Shown here one piece after another: positions 41,618 to 53,232 of a DNA stretch of 54,271 nt. The notes beneath the pieces are model-generated. The model was given only the letters and a program-made list of their open reading frames with translations. It did no database searches and was not told where the DNA came from. Source of the stretch: Patescibacteria group bacterium (GTDB lineage Bacteria > Patescibacteriota > Doudnabacteria > UBA920); contig WARV01000012.1 in assembly GCA_013387205.1 (NCBI GenBank), positions 1 through 54,271 on the forward strand, in the 5' to 3' direction. How positions within the stretch are numbered: the stretch's first letter is position 1; every line of letters begins with the position of its first letter. A program made the position numbers and the translations under genes.

Positions 41618-42280
41618 ATGAAAATTTTATTAGTTGAAGACGACGAATCAATAGCCAGCGTTATAAAAGCCGGTTTGCAGACCGAGCTTTTTGCTGTAGA
41701 TGTGGCTGACAACGGCGAAGAGGGTTCTTTGCTGGCACGGACTAACGATTACGATCTGGTTATTTTAGATGTCACTCTGCCGAGGAAGAGCGGGTCAGAT
41801 GTCTTGGCTGATATTCGAAATAAAGGAAAGACTGCACCCATTTTGGTACTGTCCGTAGAATCCGAAACAGATTTGAAAGTCAAGATGCTTGATGGTGGGG
41901 CAGATGACTATTTGAACAAACCTTTTTCGTTTAAGGAGCTCATGGCCAGAATTAGGGCCTTACTCCGCCGTCCCAAGAGGATCGAAGCCGAAGTACTTGC
42001 TGTTGATGACTTAAAACTTAATACGAAAACCCATGTAGTAACTAGGGATGGCAAAGATATCCGTTTGACCAGGAAAGAATTTATGCTGCTGGAATTGCTT
42101 ATGCACAATCACGGCGATGTAGTATCCCGGGGCATGATTGATGAGCATGTCTGGGATAACGAGGCTGACCCATTTTCCAAAACTATAGAATCCCATATTT
42201 TAAGCCTTCGCCGGAAGATAAACGAGAATGGGAAAAAGAAGCTGATAGAGACTTTATCGGGAAGGGGCTATAAAATATAG
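41618..42280 (+). CDS. OmpR/PhoB-family response regulator
   Basis: A 220-aa protein with a receiver domain (phospho-acceptor Asp51 in VILDVTLP, Lys101 in LNKPFS, acidic pair LVEDDE) and a C-terminal winged helix (ARIRALLRRP linker; NHGDVVSRGMIDEHVWD; SKTIESHILSLRRKINENG). It has no kinase neighbour. A PhoB-like regulator binds tandem 11-bp repeats, so it could in principle act on the arrays at 45-53 kb; this is only a suggestion. Confidence 0.93.
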   Translation: MKILLVEDDESIASVIKAGLQTELFAVDVADNGEEGSLLARTNDYDLVILDVTLPRKSGSDVLADIRNKGKTAPILVLSVESETDLKVKMLDGGADDYLNKPFSFKELMARIRALLRRPKRIEAEVLAVDDLKLNTKTHVVTRDGKDIRLTRKEFMLLELLMHNHGDVVSRGMIDEHVWDNEADPFSKTIESHILSLRRKINENGKKKLIETLSGRGYKI

Positions 42281-44336: not shown

Positions 44337-45074
44337 TCACAAGACAGTGAAGGTGTAGGTGTTTGAAACTGCGCCGTTACCTATTACTTCTTGGATACTC
44401 CACGTTCCGGCCGTCCCAAAAGTAATGGTCAGATTGTACTGTGTTGGGGCTTGCCCCCAAATTTGACTACCAGTGAGAATGGCATAGCCGCCACCAGGGA
44501 AATTTACGCGCACTGCCGTCACCGTTCCTTGGGTGGGCCCATACACTGTAAGAGTGATAGGGCTCGAAGAGTGACTGGGAGTGGCAGGGTAAATATTGTT
44601 GATGTAAGGTGATCCAGGGTACAGGTTGGGGTATATGTAGCCTCGGTCAAAGAAGGTCGCCGAATGGTATACGCCAGTCTGTGTGTAGTTGGAGCCGCAA
44701 TTCTGTTCAGTGACGAGGACTGAGCCGTCGTTGTTCACCTGTGTTACATACGCTACGTGACCGTATGTGCCGTAACTACTCACCCCAATAGTGCCTACCG
44801 AGGGAATATTCGTTACAACTTGGAGTCCGCTAGCACGGGCACTGTTTGCCCAGTTGTTCGCGTTACCCCAGTTGGTGGCAGGATAGCCCCAAAGGTCGTG
44901 CATCATCTGCCACGCCTTCCAGGTACAATTGCCGCCAGGGTATGGCGGGTTGCAACAGGCGTAAATGTTGCCGGGTGATGATTCACCGCCGCAAGTATCG
45001 GCAGCCTTCACTTGATCTGCATAAAAGCAGAGCATAAATACGAACATCACCAAAGTCGTCAGTGACTTCTTCAC
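44337..45074 (-). CDS. Secreted CHAP-domain amidase
   Basis: A 245-aa protein. The GTG at 45074 is chosen as start because a strong Shine-Dalgarno (GGAGG, 5 bases away) precedes it; upstream codons in the frame would read through the leader. A signal peptide (about 1-24, LVMFVFMLCFYADQVKA) is followed by a CHAP domain with candidate catalytic Cys50 (NCTWKAW), His106 (GHVAYV) and Glu123 (VTEQNCG). A beta-sandwich module (TVYGPTQGTVTAVRV to the end) may bind wall or sugar. It probably cleaves peptidoglycan peptide bonds outside the cell. Controlled by promoter cassette A. Confidence 0.85.
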   Translation of the reverse strand: MKKSLTTLVMFVFMLCFYADQVKAADTCGGESSPGNIYACCNPPYPGGNCTWKAWQMMHDLWGYPATNWGNANNWANSARASGLQVVTNIPSVGTIGVSSYGTYGHVAYVTQVNNDGSVLVTEQNCGSNYTQTGVYHSATFFDRGYIYPNLYPGSPYINNIYPATPSHSSSPITLTVYGPTQGTVTAVRVNFPGGGYAILTGSQIWGQAPTQYNLTITFGTAGTWSIQEVIGNGAVSNTYTFTVL

Positions 45075-45149
45075 GTTTTCCTCCAATTGGAATTTTTGGC
45101 GAATCATTTTCAGGATCCGTCGTTTATGCGCAAGCGAGCGCACAAGGGA
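45075..45149 (-). ncRNA. Conserved 5' leader, copy A
   Basis: On the minus strand this leader has hairpin 1 UGUGCGC-UCGCUU-GCGCAUA, then AAACGACGGAUCC and an AAUGAUUCGCC segment, then the Shine-Dalgarno GGAGGA. The same order is found in copies B and C. Confidence 0.65.
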
Positions 45150-45210
45150 AGTATAACTTCGCGGTGGTAAAATAAAATCAAATAAAAAGTAAAATTTTGG
45201 TAAAATTGTG
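45150..45210 (-). promoter_or_regulatory. Promoter cassette A: -10 plus four 11-bp repeats
   Basis: The -10 TATACT lies at 45155-45150 (minus strand). After an 11-base gap come four 11-bp units (45167-45210); read on the plus strand they start GTAAAAT, TCAAATA, GTAAAAT and GTAAAAT. No canonical -35 is present. Confidence 0.75.
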
Positions 45211-45235
45211 GATAAATAATATAATAAAAATGCAG

Positions 45236-45268
45236 AGAGACCTCTTTGTTGTAAGAGGTCTCTTTTTT
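45236..45268. terminator. Terminator upstream of cassette A
   Basis: AGAGACCTC and GAGGTCTCT pair and are followed by TTTTTT on the plus strand, with an AT-rich run on the minus strand. It separates the cassette from the gene at 45304. Confidence 0.7.
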
Positions 45269-45303
45269 GTTTGTGGAAATTATTTTTTTATCAAAAAAAT
45301 TTT

Positions 45304-45966
45304 TTAATTGGTACCGGACACGGCTTTAAAGCCGTTCAAAAATTTATTATAGTAATCCCGCGCCTCTTTCGTGCTGGTATCGTTTAAGTCAATACGCAGT
45401 AGATAACCCTGAGTCACAAAATAAATGTCTTCTGCGGCATACACTCCGGGAGTTGGTCGGCTTGTAATTTTAACGCATTGAATGTTATTGATTTCACAAT
45501 TTGGTTTACTCGGGAGAGGGTCAGTATTTTCAGACGGCGTATAGTGCTTTTTTACTTCGGTCAATAAATCGTAGTTGGCTGACAGCTTGTCGTTGGCAGT
45601 AAGATTGATACGGCCATCTAATTCTATTCTCGGCCACCCGATCCAGTCGTTAGTGGTTGTGGAGTTTCGGCCGGTATCAGACGATAATACTATCATTCTG
45701 GACGTTTCAAAGTCTTGCCTCATATAATTCATGTCCTCAAACGGCTTAAATTCGTAACCGCTTTGGTCGTCTCTGTACGTCACATTAGCTTTTAATGTGT
45801 CTTGAGCCGCCAACTGTTCAGGGGTAACTACGTTACCGGTTTGAGCAGAAGGCGGAGTTGAAGTTTTATTATGGTTACCGGCTTGTTTGTTGTATAGATA
45901 CACCTCTCCCAAGATGATAAGCGCTATAATTATACCTAAAAGAATTTTTTTTGATGATTTGTTCAT
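45304..45966 (-). CDS. Membrane-anchored PsbP-like protein
   Basis: A 220-aa protein with an N-terminal helix (ILLGIIIALIILGEVYLY) and no lipobox. After an acidic Ser/Thr-rich linker it contains TYRDDQSGYEFKPFEDMNY and RIELDGRINLTANDKLS, weakly similar to the other PsbP-like genes. Two Cys (CEINNIQC) may pair. Function unknown. Confidence 0.65.
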   Translation of the reverse strand: MNKSSKKILLGIIIALIILGEVYLYNKQAGNHNKTSTPPSAQTGNVVTPEQLAAQDTLKANVTYRDDQSGYEFKPFEDMNYMRQDFETSRMIVLSSDTGRNSTTTNDWIGWPRIELDGRINLTANDKLSANYDLLTEVKKHYTPSENTDPLPSKPNCEINNIQCVKITSRPTPGVYAAEDIYFVTQGYLLRIDLNDTSTKEARDYYNKFLNGFKAVSGTN

Positions 45967-46364
45967 AAGAAGATTAAATTAGCTTTGTTAAATAAGATTC
46001 CGGAACTGGCAATAGTATATCATGCCAGTCCCGGGCCGGTCTATGAGCTCATCGCTCAGTTAACCGTGAAGTAAAACAGGCTGGAAAACACGCCATTCTT
46101 AAATTATGCCGCATCCCTGAACGAATAGGGTTTACCCAAAAAAAGCCGGCTTGGTTTATTCTACTTCGGAATTATCCGATCGAGAGATTTTGATGCAGAT
46201 TATGTTTTCCTGCGTGCGGTAGATAATCTTCTTCCTTGCTGGAAAAGTAGAACGAGAATACCATGCTAATCAGACCGAAGAATTGTTCTCTGGAGCTTCC
46301 CTACACCTAAGCTTGGTCCTTTTATTCTTTTGTAGAATTTCTTCCGCCATAAAAATAAATAGGT

Positions 46365-46432
46365 AAGCAAAAGTACAGGGCTACAACTTCAGCTGAGTTG
46401 AGGAGCGAAATTGTAGCCCTGTACTTTTGCTT
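46365..46432. repeat. 22-bp perfect palindrome arms
   Basis: The arm starting AAGCAAAAGTACAGGGCTAC is perfectly inverse to TGTAGCCCTGTACTTTTGCT, around a 24-base loop. It is much longer than a usual terminator and has no T tail. Confidence 0.65.
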
Positions 46433-46447
46433 CTCAAAAAAACGCCG

Positions 46448-46506
46448 CCTTGCTGTTAACTTTCGATTTACATATATTATTACATTGTGAATTTGTTACA
46501 GCAAGG
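46448..46506. repeat. Second inverted repeat
   Basis: CCTTGCTGTTAAC and GTTACAGCAAGG can pair with one bulge around a loop of about 34 bases. Confidence 0.45.
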
Positions 46507-46563
46507 GTTTTGTGTCCTTTTTCCTATATTGTATTGATTTAATGATAGACAATAATTTTTTTA

Positions 46564-47136
46564 CTATTTAAATTTTACTGAAGAAAGTATTGTGTTAAAA
46601 ACATTATCAATTTGTTGTTGCTCTACTGTTGTATTGCCTATATTTTTACTATTATTGGAAAAGTTAAATACTAAGTTATTGGCAAAGGTGATCCGAGAAT
46701 TCTGATAGACCGGTGGGGTAACCCCTTCAATCACGTACGTGACCTTTCCATCTATACGGACGGTTTCCTTTTTTATGAGATTGCGTACACTTTCGTTTGT
46801 TATATAGTTATTAACATTGCCACTATAGGTATCGTGACGGTATGTAAAAATAATTGGAGCAATTATTGATCCTTCAGCCATGTACTGTTTTTGTTTATTA
46901 CTAAAGGACAAGGTGGTTGTAGTGTCTTTTTGGCTGGCTTCAACTTTCCAGTCTTTAGGATACCTGAATTCCAGTGCTCCATTGCTAAATTTTTCCCAGT
47001 TCGTGGTGTCGAGCTTGGCCTGGAATGTCGTTTCGTTTGATGTTTGCGAGCTGTCTGGTTGGGCTGGCTGTTGGTTAAAGGTACATCCTGCAGCTATTAG
47101 GGATATAACACTAAGGCTGAATAGTATTTTTTTCAT
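46564..47136 (-). CDS. PsbP-like lipoprotein
   Basis: A 190-aa protein with a lipobox (FSLSVISLIAAGC, Cys18) and a PsbP-like core beginning EKFSNGALEFRYPKDWKVE. It resembles the other lipoproteins of the window but lacks the second module. Function unknown. Confidence 0.75.
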   Translation of the reverse strand: MKKILFSLSVISLIAAGCTFNQQPAQPDSSQTSNETTFQAKLDTTNWEKFSNGALEFRYPKDWKVEASQKDTTTTLSFSNKQKQYMAEGSIIAPIIFTYRHDTYSGNVNNYITNESVRNLIKKETVRIDGKVTYVIEGVTPPVYQNSRITFANNLVFNFSNNSKNIGNTTVEQQQIDNVFNTILSSVKFK

Positions 47137-47197
47137 AGAATTAATTTGAACGTTTATTAGTATTTAGTATATAGTTTACCATGATGAGTTAAGTGTG

Positions 47198-47229
47198 GGA
47201 ACCCCTGCGTTTTTAGACGTAAGGGTTCC
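47198..47229 (-). terminator. Hairpin after M23 gene
   Basis: GGAACCC and GGGTTCC with an inner CTGCG/CGTAA stem; it follows the M23 stop after about 12 bases. Confidence 0.5.
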
Positions 47230-47240
47230 TAGTTGAACTG

Positions 47241-48305
47241 CTATTCCGTGACCGTGGACCCTACTGGATAGGAGTAGTAATCCGAGACACCGGCGATATT
47301 GCAAAACTGGTATGCCAGGTTGAGAAAGGCTTGGCCGGTGAAAGGCCGCCGCGTTCCATTGTCAGTGACAATAGACACCTCCGCCCCTCCCCATTGCTGG
47401 ATCAGCCTGCCGTCTGGTTGACTCCTGCCATTGCCAGTAAGGGCATCAATGACGTCGGCTCCGCGTGGGTATCTGTCCATCTCGGCTTGGGATATAATCA
47501 CGACATCTCTGAAGTCAAACCCTCGACCTGGTCCGTACAACTCCCAGAGCCTCTGCGGGCTGGAGATCATCCTCTTTTGGCCGTTCTGGAGGACGTAAAT
47601 AGCAGGGTTGCCATAGACCTGAACAATGGAACCATTGGGATGCAGGGGTAGGTTACCGTAGGGACGATACCTTTCCGCTGTCCCATTAGTACATTTTGGT
47701 GTGTTAGAAGTAATCCAACCCGTGGGATCTGTAAGACCGTTGGTACTCGGCCAAGAGTCATTTGGCATCGCCCCTAAGTTGTTGGAAGGAGGAGTGGTGT
47801 TTGGAACGATTCCGAAGTGGAGGTGATTTCCATTGCTCCAGTAACCGACTCTACCTATCTCAACTCCGCCCGTTACTCGGTCCCCAGCAACCAAGTTGGT
47901 GGTTATGTGCCCATAAAGTGCCAAGAACTCACTGCCGTTGCTTAGCGTATGCTTGATGAGAAGTCCCACATTACCTGTACCCCAATTGTTTGGACTTACG
48001 CTGTAGACCGTGCCGGGAGCTATCGCGTAAACGGGATTATTGAGACCATACATCATATCGTAGCCGATATGATAGTATTCGGGGAGATAGCATCCACCGT
48101 TAGCTGGATCCCGTCCGAGCCAAGTTCCGCAGGTGTAAGGGAAACTGCTCATCCCAGTGGGGTAAAAGAACCCTGTGCCGGTTTGGATAAAGGTCACTTC
48201 TTCTGCTCGAAGCAGATCAACACCGCTTCCAAACAGAAGAAAGAAAGCTGCCATAAACATGACGACGAAACCAACCTGGTGGTTAGTCCTAGAATAGAGT
48301 AACAC
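47241..48305 (-). CDS. Secreted M23-family peptidase with C-terminal repeats
   Basis: A 354-aa protein with a signal peptide (about 1-34, VVMFMAAFFLLFGSGVDLLRA) and an M23 (LytM) metallopeptidase domain: HxxxD with His79 and Asp83, LYGHI (His133) and HLHFG (His161, His163). From about residue 222 two repeats follow (GSIVQVYGNPAIYVL and a later GRLIQQWGGAEVSIV) that match the repeats of the 502-aa surface protein at 7.4 kb. It should cut peptide cross-links of a cell wall. The GTG start has a strong Shine-Dalgarno (AGGAGG). Controlled by promoter cassette B. Confidence 0.88.
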   Translation of the reverse strand: MLLYSRTNHQVGFVVMFMAAFFLLFGSGVDLLRAEEVTFIQTGTGFFYPTGMSSFPYTCGTWLGRDPANGGCYLPEYYHIGYDMMYGLNNPVYAIAPGTVYSVSPNNWGTGNVGLLIKHTLSNGSEFLALYGHITTNLVAGDRVTGGVEIGRVGYWSNGNHLHFGIVPNTTPPSNNLGAMPNDSWPSTNGLTDPTGWITSNTPKCTNGTAERYRPYGNLPLHPNGSIVQVYGNPAIYVLQNGQKRMISSPQRLWELYGPGRGFDFRDVVIISQAEMDRYPRGADVIDALTGNGRSQPDGRLIQQWGGAEVSIVTDNGTRRPFTGQAFLNLAYQFCNIAGVSDYYSYPVGSTVTE

Positions 48306-48379
48306 TTTTTATCCTCCTGTGGATTTTAGCGAATCATTGTTAGGACTCGCTGTTTGTGCGCAAGTGAGCGCACAAAAAA
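48306..48379 (-). ncRNA. Conserved 5' leader, copy B
   Basis: Hairpin 1 is UGUGCGC-UCACUU-GCGCACA. Hairpin 2 closes with AGCGA/UCGCU. It is followed by AGGAGGA and the GTG start. Where copy C has GUCGG/CCGAC this copy has a different but still pairing stem. Confidence 0.65.
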
Positions 48380-48440
48380 AGTATAACCTTGCAGTAGTAA
48401 GATAAAATCAAAGAAAAGATAAAATTTTGGTAAAATTGTG
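48380..48440 (-). promoter_or_regulatory. Promoter cassette B: -10 plus four 11-bp repeats
   Basis: The -10 TATACT lies at 48385-48380, then an 11-base gap, then units at 48397-48440 beginning GTAAGAT, TCAAAGA, ATAAAAT and GTAAAAT on the plus strand. Confidence 0.75.
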
Positions 48441-48546
48441 GATAAGGTACATAATAAAATGCACGGGGGTTCTTAGTTGGAAGAGGTATCTTGGTTGTCT
48501 AGCCATGTTAAAATTATGTCGCATCCCCATTGTTTACCACAAAAGA

Positions 48547-48599
48547 AGCCGGTTCTTCAAGACGCAAATCCTAAAAAGGACGCGCTTTCCGAACCGGCT
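48547..48599 (-). terminator. Long hairpin after receiver gene
   Basis: AGCCGGTTC and GAACCGGCT pair, with a small inner hairpin TCCT-AAAA-AGGA. It follows the stop of the receiver gene on the minus strand. Confidence 0.6.
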
Positions 48600-48604
48600 A
48601 TGGA

Positions 48605-49036
48605 TTATTCTTGGCCCAACAATCTGCGGATTTTATCAAGAAGACGGCTGGAGGTGAACGGCTTACACAGAAAGTCGTGAACCCCGGCTTTAAGAGGGTC
48701 TTCGTTGGTAAAACCCGAAATACAAAGCACTTTTAGGCCAGGCTGGCGCTGCAAAAGCAGTTTTGCCAACTCTATTCCGCTCATGCCTGACATTTGGACA
48801 TCTGTCAGCAGAAGGGAAATCAGTTCTCCGCTGCTGTCGTATTTCATCAATGCCTCTTGGCCGCTTGAAGCTTCAATAACCTGATAACCCTTGGAAAGAA
48901 GCATTGAGCTAACCACTTTCCGGATACTGGCTTCGTCGTCTACCAGCAAGATAATTACGTTTTTTTGCTTTGGCTCAGTATTATTTGAGTCTAAAACCCG
49001 ACAACCTGCTTTTGGCGCATCGAATTGTGCGGCCAT
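48605..49036 (-). CDS. Receiver-only response regulator
   Basis: A 143-aa protein: a 25-residue N-terminal extension, then a full receiver domain (acidic LVDDE, phospho-Asp79 in LLLTDVQMSGMSG, Lys125 in FLCKPFTSS). There is no output domain. The receiver type (CheY/NtrC-like) fits the sensor kinase encoded at 51.3-52.8 kb, so the pair may work together and pass the signal by protein contact. Strong Shine-Dalgarno AGGAGG. Controlled by promoter cassette C. Confidence 0.9.
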   Translation of the reverse strand: MAAQFDAPKAGCRVLDSNNTEPKQKNVIILLVDDEASIRKVVSSMLLSKGYQVIEASSGQEALMKYDSSGELISLLLTDVQMSGMSGIELAKLLLQRQPGLKVLCISGFTNEDPLKAGVHDFLCKPFTSSRLLDKIRRLLGQE

Positions 49037-49111
49037 TTATTTCTCCTCCTTTGAATTTTGTCGGGCCGTTGTCAGGTTCCGACGTTTACGCGCTCGCTTG
49101 CGCACAAGGAA
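49037..49111 (-). ncRNA. Conserved 5' leader, copy C
   Basis: Hairpin 1 is UGUGCGC-AAGCGA-GCGCGUA (two G-U pairs). Hairpin 2 closes with GUCGG/CCGAC. It ends with AGGAGGAGAAAUAAAUG. Confidence 0.65.
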
Positions 49112-49172
49112 AGTATAACCTTACAATGGTAAAATAAAATCAAAGAAAAAGTAAAATTTTGGTAAAATATAT
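49112..49172 (-). promoter_or_regulatory. Promoter cassette C: -10 plus four 11-bp repeats
   Basis: The -10 TATACT lies at 49117-49112, then an 11-base gap, then units at 49129-49172 beginning GTAAAAT, TCAAAGA, GTAAAAT and GTAAAAT on the plus strand. Confidence 0.75.
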
Positions 49173-49398: not shown

Positions 49399-51348
49399 TC
49401 AGTAGTTCTTTAAAAAATCCTGCATTTTGCGGCTTTCATCCAATGCTTGCCTGGCAGCAGCTTCTGGTTTGACCAGTAAGCCTAACAAGACATCCGGTTT
49501 TTCTATAATTGATATTCGGGACAAAGATTGCCGTGCGGATTTAACGTGCTGGAGAATTTTTTTGGCTATATTTGGGATGATTTTATTCCAAAACAATTTT
49601 TGCAGTTTTTGTTCATCGCGTTTGAGGTCTACGGCCTTTTTGTAAAAAATACCCAGAACTTCCGCGCCAACGTAATTGATTCTGCCTGCACGCAAATCCT
49701 CCAGCCAATCATGTGCGTCATCGTTCAATTGGCGGGCAATGAGATAATGCGTGAAAAAACTTTTAAGATTTTTTGCTTCTATTGAGCCGGCAGGATATCC
49801 AATCAACATCAAAATAGTAAGCGGACCCAAGGCGTGCCCCAAACTTTTGTCTGCCAGCTGCTGTAAATTTTTAAAATCAGGGAGATTTTTGGGAACCGAC
49901 AGCTTGCCGTCCATAATTTGAACGCTGCAGTTTTTGCTCTCCCAAGCATTGGCCGCGTCAATATTATTCAAAATACCATTAACTAAGCTGTAATTATTAT
50001 TACGGCCGAACAGCCCTGTATAACAAGCGGTGACTTCCCGCAGACCAATATTAGCCACAGGCAAAAAATCAATATTACCCTCGCCATCAAAAAAGTCATC
50101 ATAAATAGTGTAAGCAATCCAGCCAAAAAGATTTGCCGTCCCCAAATCAATCACCCGCCTGTCCGTGATTCGTTTTCCTCTATCCCCCAAGCTTTCCCTG
50201 AACCAAAAAGGCAAAAGCCCGATTTGCCGGTCAATATCCTTTTCCGTTGTTTTATCCAAAGCCATAAGCGCATAATCTTTTACTTCCGGCGGTAAAGAGG
50301 AAAGTCTTGTATTTGCCTGATTGACAATGCTTTGGTATATTTTTTCATCCTGGGCACGGGAATTGTTACCAGGCTGCTTTGCAGGTTTATCGAGCAGCGG
50401 CAGATATTTCACCAGAGCTTCAAGACAGAAAGCCGTGGTTACACTGCCGGTTCCGGCAAAGCGTTTTTTCCCATTTTCTTCCGGAGCCAAATAAAAGGCA
50501 TTAGCAGGCCAACCTTTGCCATCGAAATTTTGCAAAAGATAATCTATGCTTTTCTCCAGTTCTTGCGGATTTTGGCAATCCAGATTGATTAAGGCGGAGA
50601 CGCTGAGCGCCGTGTCCAATGGATTGCCCCAGGAAAAATCTGGCTGTCTTTTTGAAACCAGGTATTCTGCTAGCTTTTCTTTGTAGCTTCCCTGATAAGA
50701 CCGCGAGATGAAATATGCTATGGGAATAGCTGAATAATATAAGGAGGCAAATTTTTTTGCTTTTATCGCTTGGTCAAAAAATGTGAGTATTTTGGGCAAC
50801 CGCACTTTTTGCATTGAAAGGAAATACGCCACATTGGCATTTACGGCCAAGTCGACATCCTGCCAAACTTTTGGCGCTCTCCTATCTACCAACCAGGTAT
50901 TATAAGGTCCGCCCGGTTCTATTTCCGTGTTTGCCAGCAGTTTAACAATGTGGGCCAAAACTTCTCCGTTGATGGTGTTGGAATTATAGCCGGCCAAAGC
51001 CGTTAATGCACAAAAGGTATCATCCAAATCATCCGGGTATGGAGTTAATCCGGCCTCCTGGGATTTTCTCTGCCAATAGTTAAAAGACCATTGTTGGCTT
51101 TTTTGCGATAACAAAAATCGGACAGCTTTCTGTCTTACCTTATCCGCCTTGGCTGAACGGGGCAAAGAATTTAAGCAATGTAAAATATTGGAAGTAAAAA
51201 AGGGCGTACGGTGAATTCTTGCTTTTTTAAAGTCATCTTGGCGGCCAGAATCCAAACCCAAAAAACTGCCGTCCGATTGCTGTTCCCTAGCCAAAAAATG
51301 GACGCCTTGACTTAAAATTTTGCGGATTTTTCCAGGAATTGTATTCAT
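49399..51348 (-). CDS. Two-domain terpene-synthase-like enzyme (class II plus class I motifs)
   Basis: A 649-aa protein. The ATG at 51348 overlaps the kinase stop (ATGA), so they are coupled; a longer frame to 51402 lies inside the kinase gene. The N-terminal half has alpha-barrel repeats of the terpenoid-cyclase/prenyltransferase type (QQSDGSF at 23-29; QPDFSWGNPLDTALSVSALI; GTGSVTTAFCLEAL) and the class II acid motif DLDD (107-110). The C-terminal half has two class I Asp-rich motifs 126 residues apart: YDDFFD (416-421) and QLNDDAHDWLEDLRAGR (540-556), the second like the squalene/phytoene synthase motif. It could cyclise a prenyl diphosphate, but the substrate is unknown and no isoprenoid pathway gene lies nearby. 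Confidence 0.7.
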   Translation of the reverse strand: MNTIPGKIRKILSQGVHFLAREQQSDGSFLGLDSGRQDDFKKARIHRTPFFTSNILHCLNSLPRSAKADKVRQKAVRFLLSQKSQQWSFNYWQRKSQEAGLTPYPDDLDDTFCALTALAGYNSNTINGEVLAHIVKLLANTEIEPGGPYNTWLVDRRAPKVWQDVDLAVNANVAYFLSMQKVRLPKILTFFDQAIKAKKFASLYYSAIPIAYFISRSYQGSYKEKLAEYLVSKRQPDFSWGNPLDTALSVSALINLDCQNPQELEKSIDYLLQNFDGKGWPANAFYLAPEENGKKRFAGTGSVTTAFCLEALVKYLPLLDKPAKQPGNNSRAQDEKIYQSIVNQANTRLSSLPPEVKDYALMALDKTTEKDIDRQIGLLPFWFRESLGDRGKRITDRRVIDLGTANLFGWIAYTIYDDFFDGEGNIDFLPVANIGLREVTACYTGLFGRNNNYSLVNGILNNIDAANAWESKNCSVQIMDGKLSVPKNLPDFKNLQQLADKSLGHALGPLTILMLIGYPAGSIEAKNLKSFFTHYLIARQLNDDAHDWLEDLRAGRINYVGAEVLGIFYKKAVDLKRDEQKLQKLFWNKIIPNIAKKILQHVKSARQSLSRISIIEKPDVLLGLLVKPEAAARQALDESRKMQDFLKNY

Positions 51349-52787
51349 GCGGTGAACTCTACGGTAAACGTTGAACCTTGAACCGGCAGACTTTTTACGC
51401 AAATGTTCCCTCCGAAATCTTTTTCAACGATATTTTTTGTGGTGGAAAGCCCTATCCCAGTGCCTTTTTCTAAATTTTTGGTGGTGAAAAACGGGTCGAA
51501 TATTTTCTCCAAAATATCAGGCGCAATCCCGCAGCCCCAATCCTGTACTTCCAGCCTGACTATATGGTGATTCTCGGCAAGCCGTATTTCCACTGCCCTT
51601 TTCCCGTTATCTTGCGCGGGCATATCGTCATAAGCATCTATGGCATTGGCTACTAAATTAGACAGCATCTGATGGAATTTTACGGGACTGCCGAAAGCCT
51701 GCACTTCGTGCTGCCTGACAAAATTTAATTCCACGTTAGCCTTGCGAGCCTTAAAATCTAACAGTTGCATTACTTGGTGGATTTCCTCATTCAAAGAAAA
51801 AGAGATTTTGGTTTCCTGATGGGACAGCTGTTTGCGTATGGCTCGGATGAAATTTTCCATCCGCCTTGCCGCGGCAATGCTGCCGTCCAAATAACTTTGG
51901 GCTTCTTCCAAATTCTGTCCTTTAATTTCTGCCAGTTTTCTTACGCTGATGGACACGGCAGTCAAAGGATTAATCAGGTCATGGAAAAGCCCGGAGGACA
52001 ACCGCCCGAACTCCGCGAACCGGTATAGCTGCGACATTTTTTCTACCTGCATTCTCTTTAATTCCCGCGTTCGCTCTTCAACTTTTACTTCCAGCAAATC
52101 CCGTTCCCGCTTTAACTCCGCCTCTGACCTCCGCGCCCGGTGCAGAGATTTTTCTATTTCGCGATTAGAGAGCCATGCAATAGTAACAACCAAAATATAA
52201 GTTATGCAAAATACGATGCCGTCGTTCATCCTGAATTGATAGCTGCTCCAGTAAACCTTGTGGGAGCTTAAATCGTTTAATTGTAAATAGGAAAGTGAAA
52301 TTACGGTAATAATGGTTATTGCGGTTATTAAAAAACTGAACCTTGTATTAATTAAGATACTGCTCATTATAATGATAACTGCATAACTTAAAATCATTTC
52401 AGGAAGAAAGACGCCCCAATAATAAGACCCGCTCGTAACAGCAGCGAAGTAAATGGCTAATAGTATAAAAGATGCCCAAATGAATTTACCTTTTTTAGAC
52501 AAAAAATAAAGGAATACAAAAACGCCCAAAATCAGAATGGGCGAAGTGGCTCCAAAACCTCCGAAGTCAGGGTGGTGAAAAATCCTATAAAAATTATTTA
52601 AGTTGACAATAATCAATAGAATTATTACGGCAAAAAGAATTATATTTAAAATAAGTTCTCTGCGTTTTTTATCCTCCTGGACAGATTTAGCTTTAATGAA
52701 TTTTTCAAATAAAAAATGAGCACTTCGATAAATGAAAGTGCTGCTGAAATGCCGGCATTTTTTTAGTAATTCTGCGCGCGTGCCCAT
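51345..52787 (-). CDS. Membrane sensor histidine kinase
   Basis: A protein of about 480 aa from the ATG at 52787. It has about six membrane helices (about 45-205), a coiled-coil linker, a dimerisation domain with His269 in LFHDLINPLTAV, and a full ATPase domain with the N box (NLVANAIDAY), G1 (DWGCGIAPD), F box (FDPFFTTK) and G2 (GTGIGLSTTKNI). The His box resembles NtrB-like kinases. No periplasmic sensor domain is visible, so it probably senses the membrane itself. A 39-aa ORF ends just before it. Translational coupling to the terpene-synthase-like gene links kinase and enzyme. A GTG at 52799 is an alternative start. Confidence 0.9.
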   Translation of the reverse strand: MGTRAELLKKCRHFSSTFIYRSAHFLFEKFIKAKSVQEDKKRRELILNIILFAVIILLIIVNLNNFYRIFHHPDFGGFGATSPILILGVFVFLYFLSKKGKFIWASFILLAIYFAAVTSGSYYWGVFLPEMILSYAVIIIMSSILINTRFSFLITAITIITVISLSYLQLNDLSSHKVYWSSYQFRMNDGIVFCITYILVVTIAWLSNREIEKSLHRARRSEAELKRERDLLEVKVEERTRELKRMQVEKMSQLYRFAEFGRLSSGLFHDLINPLTAVSISVRKLAEIKGQNLEEAQSYLDGSIAAARRMENFIRAIRKQLSHQETKISFSLNEEIHQVMQLLDFKARKANVELNFVRQHEVQAFGSPVKFHQMLSNLVANAIDAYDDMPAQDNGKRAVEIRLAENHHIVRLEVQDWGCGIAPDILEKIFDPFFTTKNLEKGTGIGLSTTKNIVEKDFGGNICVKSLPVQGSTFTVEFTA

Positions 52788-52798
52788 TTTTTTATCCA

Positions 52799-52918
52799 CT
52801 ATGGTAGTGGCTCTGGCGACCAAGGAAGAAGGATATCTTGCGAAAGCGCAAGATTTTGCAACTTTTCCTGTTTTCGCGCAGCCTTATCAGTGAGCAGAGT
52901 CTGCAAAATATTTTCCAT
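52799..52918 (-). CDS. 39-aa leader ORF before kinase
   Basis: A frame from the ATG at 52918 to TAG at 52799 with product MENILQTLLTDKAARKQEKL and onwards, a charged helix with a Pro-rich end. The stop touches the kinase region (TAGTG), so the kinase could be translated by coupling. Shine-Dalgarno is weak. It could be a real small protein or a translational control ORF. Confidence 0.4.
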   Translation of the reverse strand: MENILQTLLTDKAARKQEKLQNLALSQDILLPWSPEPLP

Positions 52919-52994: not shown

Positions 52995-53023
52995 ATTGTA
53001 ATGGAAAATTTAAATAATATCAA
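52995..53023 (-). promoter_or_regulatory. Proximal sigma70 promoter of kinase operon
   Basis: On the minus strand TTGATA (53023-53018) and TACAAT (53000-52995) are 17 bases apart. It would work without the array, so the operon may have a basal and a regulated promoter. Confidence 0.6.
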
Positions 53024-53171
53024 TTACCACGCAAGTTAAGGCTTTCGCGTTCCATGCCGTTCCGGCCGGAAGAGCCGGGAATCCGCGCGTTATCAGCAGG
53101 ATAACCCCGGTTCCCGCCCTCGCGAAAATGACAGAAAATCAAGTTTTTCGTAAAACGCGAAAGTCCTCTAA
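53024..53171 (-). other. Structured region between promoter D and kinase ORFs
   Basis: Contains GTTATC-CTGCT-GATAAC, the palindrome TTCCGGCCGGAA, and repeated TTTCGCG/CGCGAAA segments. Similar GTTATC/GATAAC and CGCGGA elements occur in the typA leader. Confidence 0.45.
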
Positions 53172-53232
53172 AGTATAGTTTTGCAATGGTAAAATAAAAT
53201 CAAAGAAAAAGTAAAATTTTGGTAAAGTATAT
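53172..53232 (-). promoter_or_regulatory. Promoter cassette D: -10 plus four 11-bp repeats
   Basis: The -10 TATACT lies at 53177-53172, then an 11-base gap, then units at 53189-53232 beginning GTAAAAT, TCAAAGA, GTAAAAT and GTAAAGT on the plus strand. It reads toward the kinase operon; the conserved hairpin leader of copies A-C is absent. Confidence 0.75.

Follow-up and report, generated by a model that had tools for sequence, protein, structure and literature searches.

Three genes share one promoter and leader

The window analysed here, a contig of 54,271 nt from a Patescibacteria group bacterium (WARV01000012.1), carries three minus-strand genes that, by alignment, are preceded by one homologous block. 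Genome size, gene content, and relatives likewise suggest membership in the Patescibacteria. These are a CHAP-domain gene (44337..45074; Pfam PF05257, E 1.3e-17) with a GTG start after its Shine-Dalgarno (SD) sequence, an M23 peptidase gene (47241..48305; PF01551, E 2.2e-12), and a gene encoding a single-domain response-regulator receiver, hereafter REC (48605..49036; PF00072, E 6.6e-22). An earlier note on this DNA had described a leader common to these genes, and all three do carry it on the minus strand. Because the coding regions belong to unrelated families, the block has been copied or kept as one unit. In each copy, 11-bp TTTTAC repeats are followed by TATACT, a two-hairpin leader, and a GGAGG SD. 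The repeats and TATACT form promoter blocks at 45150..45205 for CHAP (alignment and pattern scan), 48380..48435 for M23, and 49112..49167 for REC (both by alignment), all on the minus strand, and across promoter and leader the copies show 77-83% identity to the M23 copy. The SD reads GGAGG in all three leaders (CHAP, 45080..45084, -), extended to AGGAGG in M23 (48313..48318, -) and REC (49045..49050, -), and its positions are unpaired 47-66% on average in predicted folds. The distance of about 75 nt previously given from TATACT to AGGAGG is instead that from TATACT to the start codon, with the SD reached after 61-65 nt. No U-run terminator follows either hairpin in the leader sequence.

Both hairpins keep their pairing

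Hairpin 1 was located on the minus strand by folding and alignment at 45125..45144 in CHAP (UGUGCGC UCGCUU GCGCAUA) and at 48355..48374 in M23, where it is perfect; in REC it occupies 49087..49106. In all three copies its first nucleotide and the +1 predicted from TATACT are at most about 3 nt apart. All seven pairs are standard in every copy, so that the 21 stem cells of the three paralogues are all paired, and the two variable pairs are both preserved through G-U, as the earlier note had stated. The AAACG motif described downstream of hairpin 1 is invariant only as AAAC; the full motif occurs in CHAP and REC, with AAACA in M23. The inner 14 nt of the REC hairpin are the exact reverse complement of those in CHAP (inverted BLAST match, 49090-49107), changing the loop from UCGCUU to AAGCGA and leaving the stem intact. 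The inversion of the loop without breakage of the stem suggests that the stem, more than the loop, may matter at this position. The inner inversion within 49087-49106 (-) is also the pattern expected of template switching at an inverted repeat.

Hairpin 2 lies at 45098..45121 in CHAP and 48328..48351 in M23 (folding and alignment) and at 49060..49083 in REC (alignment and pair counts), again on the minus strand. Although only 6 of its 16 stem positions are invariant, 21 of 24 cells are paired. M23 has eight pairs, REC six of eight, and CHAP seven of eight, the non-pairs being one A.C mismatch in CHAP and two in REC; the CHAP copy thus pairs less weakly than formerly described. Changes on both sides of the stem affect three of the eight pairs (36-59, G-C/A-U; 37-58, G-C/U-A; 40-55, A-U/G-C/G-U), and the compensatory change from AGCGA/UCGCU to GUCGG/CCGAC is present as described, between M23 and REC. 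Six of eight pairs remain even where as many as 10 of the 16 arm positions have changed (P ~0.04-0.05 each for CHAP and REC). Contrary to hairpin 1, conservation in hairpin 2 is higher in the loop (C-CURAMAAY-G), with about five of eight positions retained, than in the arms. When 40 nt of coding sequence are added to the REC leader, hairpin 2 is lost from the predicted best fold.

Consensus folding of the alignment was considerably more stable than that of column-shuffled alignments (z of -5.3 and -7.9 for hairpins 1 and 2, and of -6.1 to -6.9 for the whole leader), and none of 1000-2000 shuffled alignments folded as well as the real one. When substitutions matching the observed ones in number and kind were placed at random, as many pairs were rarely kept in five of six directed comparisons (P 0.0001-0.02; sixth, 0.22), and sliding the partner strand by 1-3 columns lowered the pairing from 93% to 18-49%. 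Folded singly, the three leaders gave z scores of -2.9, -5.0, and -1.6 and ranked in the best 0.4-4.7% relative to 50-nt stretches of the contig. In 101-104 of 500 trials, per-pair shuffling of the 3' letters gave at least as much covariation as the real alignment, which is not significant for three paralogues; because such shuffles often match the observed value, covariation alone is weak at n = 3. The pairing is genuine as a pattern, and the covariation claim hangs on few changes. Selection on RNA structure, as proposed in the earlier note, is the best reading of these data, foremost for hairpin 2, whose arms change while the pairing stays and the loop is nearly constant, but hairpin 1 by itself also fits a DNA operator.

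Promoter repeats point to a probable two-component regulon

Four tandem 11-bp units (TTTTACCAAAA, TTTTACTTTTT, CTTTGATTTTA, and TTTTACCACTG) reach to the -10 without a canonical -35. Genome search and alignment revealed a fourth copy of the promoter block, lacking this leader, at 53172..53227 (-) upstream of a histidine-kinase operon, and none beyond these four in the 1.3 Mb genome. Across GTDB r220, the promoter pattern matched a relative (G001) and four unrelated-looking sites only, and it was absent from viral contigs. In G001, ~36 bp of the promoter is present at 92% identity ahead of an unrelated gene. A second relative, G010, carries repeats of the same type (TTTTACCTTTTCTTTGACAAAATTTTACC) upstream of its orthologous kinase operon and has the ortholog of the regulator next to that operon.

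The histidine kinase (51345..52823, -; Pfam), 55% identical to its G010 ortholog, is the likely sensor of the regulon, and an OmpR-type response regulator (41618..42280, +; Pfam), 83% identical to its G010 ortholog, is the likely binder of the repeats. In G010, the kinase is followed by a terpene-cyclase-like gene and a convergent OmpR-type regulator, and fragments from G009 and G020 likewise place the cyclase near the regulator. The window contains the same kinase, cyclase, and regulator, with the REC, M23, and CHAP genes sitting between the latter two. PhoB/OmpR-type proteins act at promoters with tandem 11-bp direct repeats, which suggests that the OmpR-type regulator binds these units.

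Divergent TTGGTA-16/17-TATAAT-like sites were observed at 45197-45265 (+), 48427, 49181, and 53219 (+) and in L038, overlapping the repeats in three of the four promoter copies and in G001. At most copies, a terminator-like hairpin follows a few nucleotides beyond the divergent site. These elements could be either bidirectional terminators of neighbouring genes or sources of very short divergent transcripts.

Behind the fourth promoter lies a different structured RNA (53030..53165, -; fold z -3.96 for 53010-53172), closed by CUUUCGCG/CGCGAAAG; it matches nothing in Rfam, and no clear counterpart turned up in the order. Between this RNA and the kinase is a further promoter-like site (TTGATA-17-TACAAT, 53023-52995). 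The kinase operon of G010 has a hairpin apparently near its +1, unrelated in sequence to the leader. A 39-residue open frame at 52799-52918 (-), between the fourth promoter and the kinase, is 56% identical to one in the equivalent position in G010 (L090:6545-6664), keeping LLTDKAARK, LALSQ, and PW..EP; it is probably a real small gene, whose product may perhaps be a signal or precursor peptide. The terpene-synthase-like protein (49399-51402, -), in one operon with the kinase and found in few relatives, has a DLDDT motif, an N-terminal half matching drimenol synthase (phmmer, 9mhs, E 2.8e-8), and a C-terminal half with YDDFFDGEG and NDDAHDWLEDL, with no Pfam family scoring above its cut-off.

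The leader is known so far from one genome

A covariance model (R1) built from the three leaders recovered the three copies in their own genome; searches of 49 genomes from the order and 379 from the phylum gave no other convincing hit. Weak matches in G019, G044, and G089 (20-26 bits) were taken as chance; in the G089 and G019 alignments, one of the hairpins is absent, mismatched, or shortened, and both lie within predicted reading frames. Rfam returned no leader match at gathering or relaxed thresholds, yielding only a tRNA in the window and weak chance matches elsewhere. Pattern scans found no leader in viral contigs and no further one in GTDB r220, and the plasmid scan gave weak matches only, mostly 77% over ~53 nt of the promoter stretch. 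CHAP homologues elsewhere reach at most 46% identity over parts of the protein, with no R1 match around the best of them (in G007), and the M23 protein has only a weak, partial match in the family. Thus far, the leader element has been found in this genome alone. A literature search on riboswitches in the Candidate Phyla Radiation gave three papers, none of which, judged by title and abstract, describes such leaders.

DISCUSSION

Our preferred explanation, held tentatively and at slightly short of an even chance, is that the leader is the structured 5' untranslated region (UTR) of a small two-component regulon and acts as a transcript stabiliser in the manner of the ompA and aprE leaders. The OmpR-type regulator would bind the tandem TTTTAC repeats, and transcription would start ~7 nt after TATACT; because the start is placed there, the mRNA would open with hairpin 1. 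Placed at the extreme 5' end, that stem could protect the transcript against 5'-end-dependent decay, and the strong SD may be held open to ribosomes by hairpin 2 and the A-rich stretch flanking it. The outcome would be long-lived, well-translated mRNAs for two cell-wall hydrolases and a receiver. The genome encodes RNase J (TIGR00649, 585.7 bits; cut-off, 400), a 5'-end-dependent nuclease. Stem-loops at the 5' terminus serve as stabilisers in the ompA 5' UTR of Escherichia coli and the aprE leader of Bacillus subtilis. Among the functions that the earlier note had listed (mRNA stability, translational control, and binding of a small ligand or protein), mRNA stability appears to fit the anatomy best, with a stem at the expected +1 and a strong SD. 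A role dependent on position and structure also fits the apparent kinase-leader hairpin of G010, whose sequence is unrelated. Against a pure stabiliser, this explanation gives no reason for the conservation of the hairpin 2 loop above that of its arms. The non-significant per-pair shuffle of just three paralogous copies and the loss of hairpin 2 from the predicted REC fold once coding sequence is included also count against it.

That loop is the basis of a second, unlikely explanation, in which hairpin 2 is a recognition element: an RNA-binding protein, small ligand, or RNA would attach to its CCURAMAAY loop and switch translation of the regulon on or off. It accounts for a loop retaining about five of eight positions above arms with 6 of 16 invariant and pairing preserved, and in each of the three copies the loop's invariant CCU could pair with AGG in the SD; however, CCU:AGG amounts to three pairs only, a common chance complement. 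The lack of an Rfam match and the small, simple form of the leader beside most known aptamers also speak against recognition, as does the neighbouring structured RNA at 53030-53165, whose complementarity to the three leaders was not above that of shuffles.

Hairpin 1 might alternatively act as double-stranded DNA, with a repressor binding the palindrome TTGTGCGC-N6-GCGCACAA at +1 as its operator. We consider this improbable. Its position over the expected start site, the nearly invariant stem sequence, the perfect inverted repeat in M23, and a spacer that tolerates inversion would all suit an operator, but the CHAP and REC variants are confined to one arm and all keep G-U pairing, and the window contains no other such site. 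Because the arms of hairpin 2 differ among the copies, an operator cannot account for that hairpin, which it leaves unexplained.

It is more doubtful still that the block is a passive relic, a promoter and leader recently copied upstream of three genes with hairpins that have not yet decayed and have no function of their own. The occurrence in a single genome, with no copies elsewhere in R1 and pattern searches, the 77-83% identity to M23 over promoter and leader, and the non-significant per-pair shuffles are all compatible with recent copying. The retention of six of eight pairs in hairpin 2 despite changes at up to 10 of 16 arm positions (P ~0.04-0.05 each, CHAP and REC) argues against it, and the whole-leader substitution tests do so more strongly. 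Finally, a short basic peptide (VRSLAHKRRILKMIR...) read from a GUG at the 5' end of the leader and acting by translational coupling or attenuation is very improbable. The frame stays open through 15 codons in every copy, continuing in frame into CHAP and ending in TAA immediately before the REC ATG, and 12 of 15 residues are common to CHAP and M23 (P ~0.06). However, REC shares only 8 of 15 with either, synonymous changes show no enrichment (P 0.1-0.7), the GUG at +1 lacks an SD, and in five of six comparisons the P for pairing is lower than that for the peptide.

It seems rather unlikely, in our estimate, that the leader is a new cis-acting RNA element of an uncultured, reduced-genome bacterium with a second hairpin loop recognised by a protein or ligand. 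If so, a two-component regulon of cell-wall hydrolases would be controlled twice, at the promoter and again at the mRNA leaders. Post-transcriptional control has been little described in small uncultured bacteria of this sort. A shared cassette of promoter and leader that ties cell-wall hydrolases to a histidine kinase would make a defined, testable regulon.

The promoter resembles those of PhoB/OmpR-type regulators in its four tandem 11-bp TTTTAC-type repeats adjoining the -10, the missing canonical -35, and an OmpR-type regulator nearby, but its box sequence is not known to match that of any regulator. The leader shares conserved hairpins ahead of an SD with the cis-regulatory leaders and riboswitches of Rfam, but it matches no family at gathering score, has no visible expression platform, and is simpler than most known aptamers. 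With the ompA 5' UTR and the aprE leader, to which it has no known sequence relation, it has in common a stem-loop that forms or adjoins the expected 5' end, a short leader, and a strong SD; it differs in having two hairpins, common to three unrelated genes of one regulon, in an uncultured host. The leader motif itself is new, and its kind is already known.
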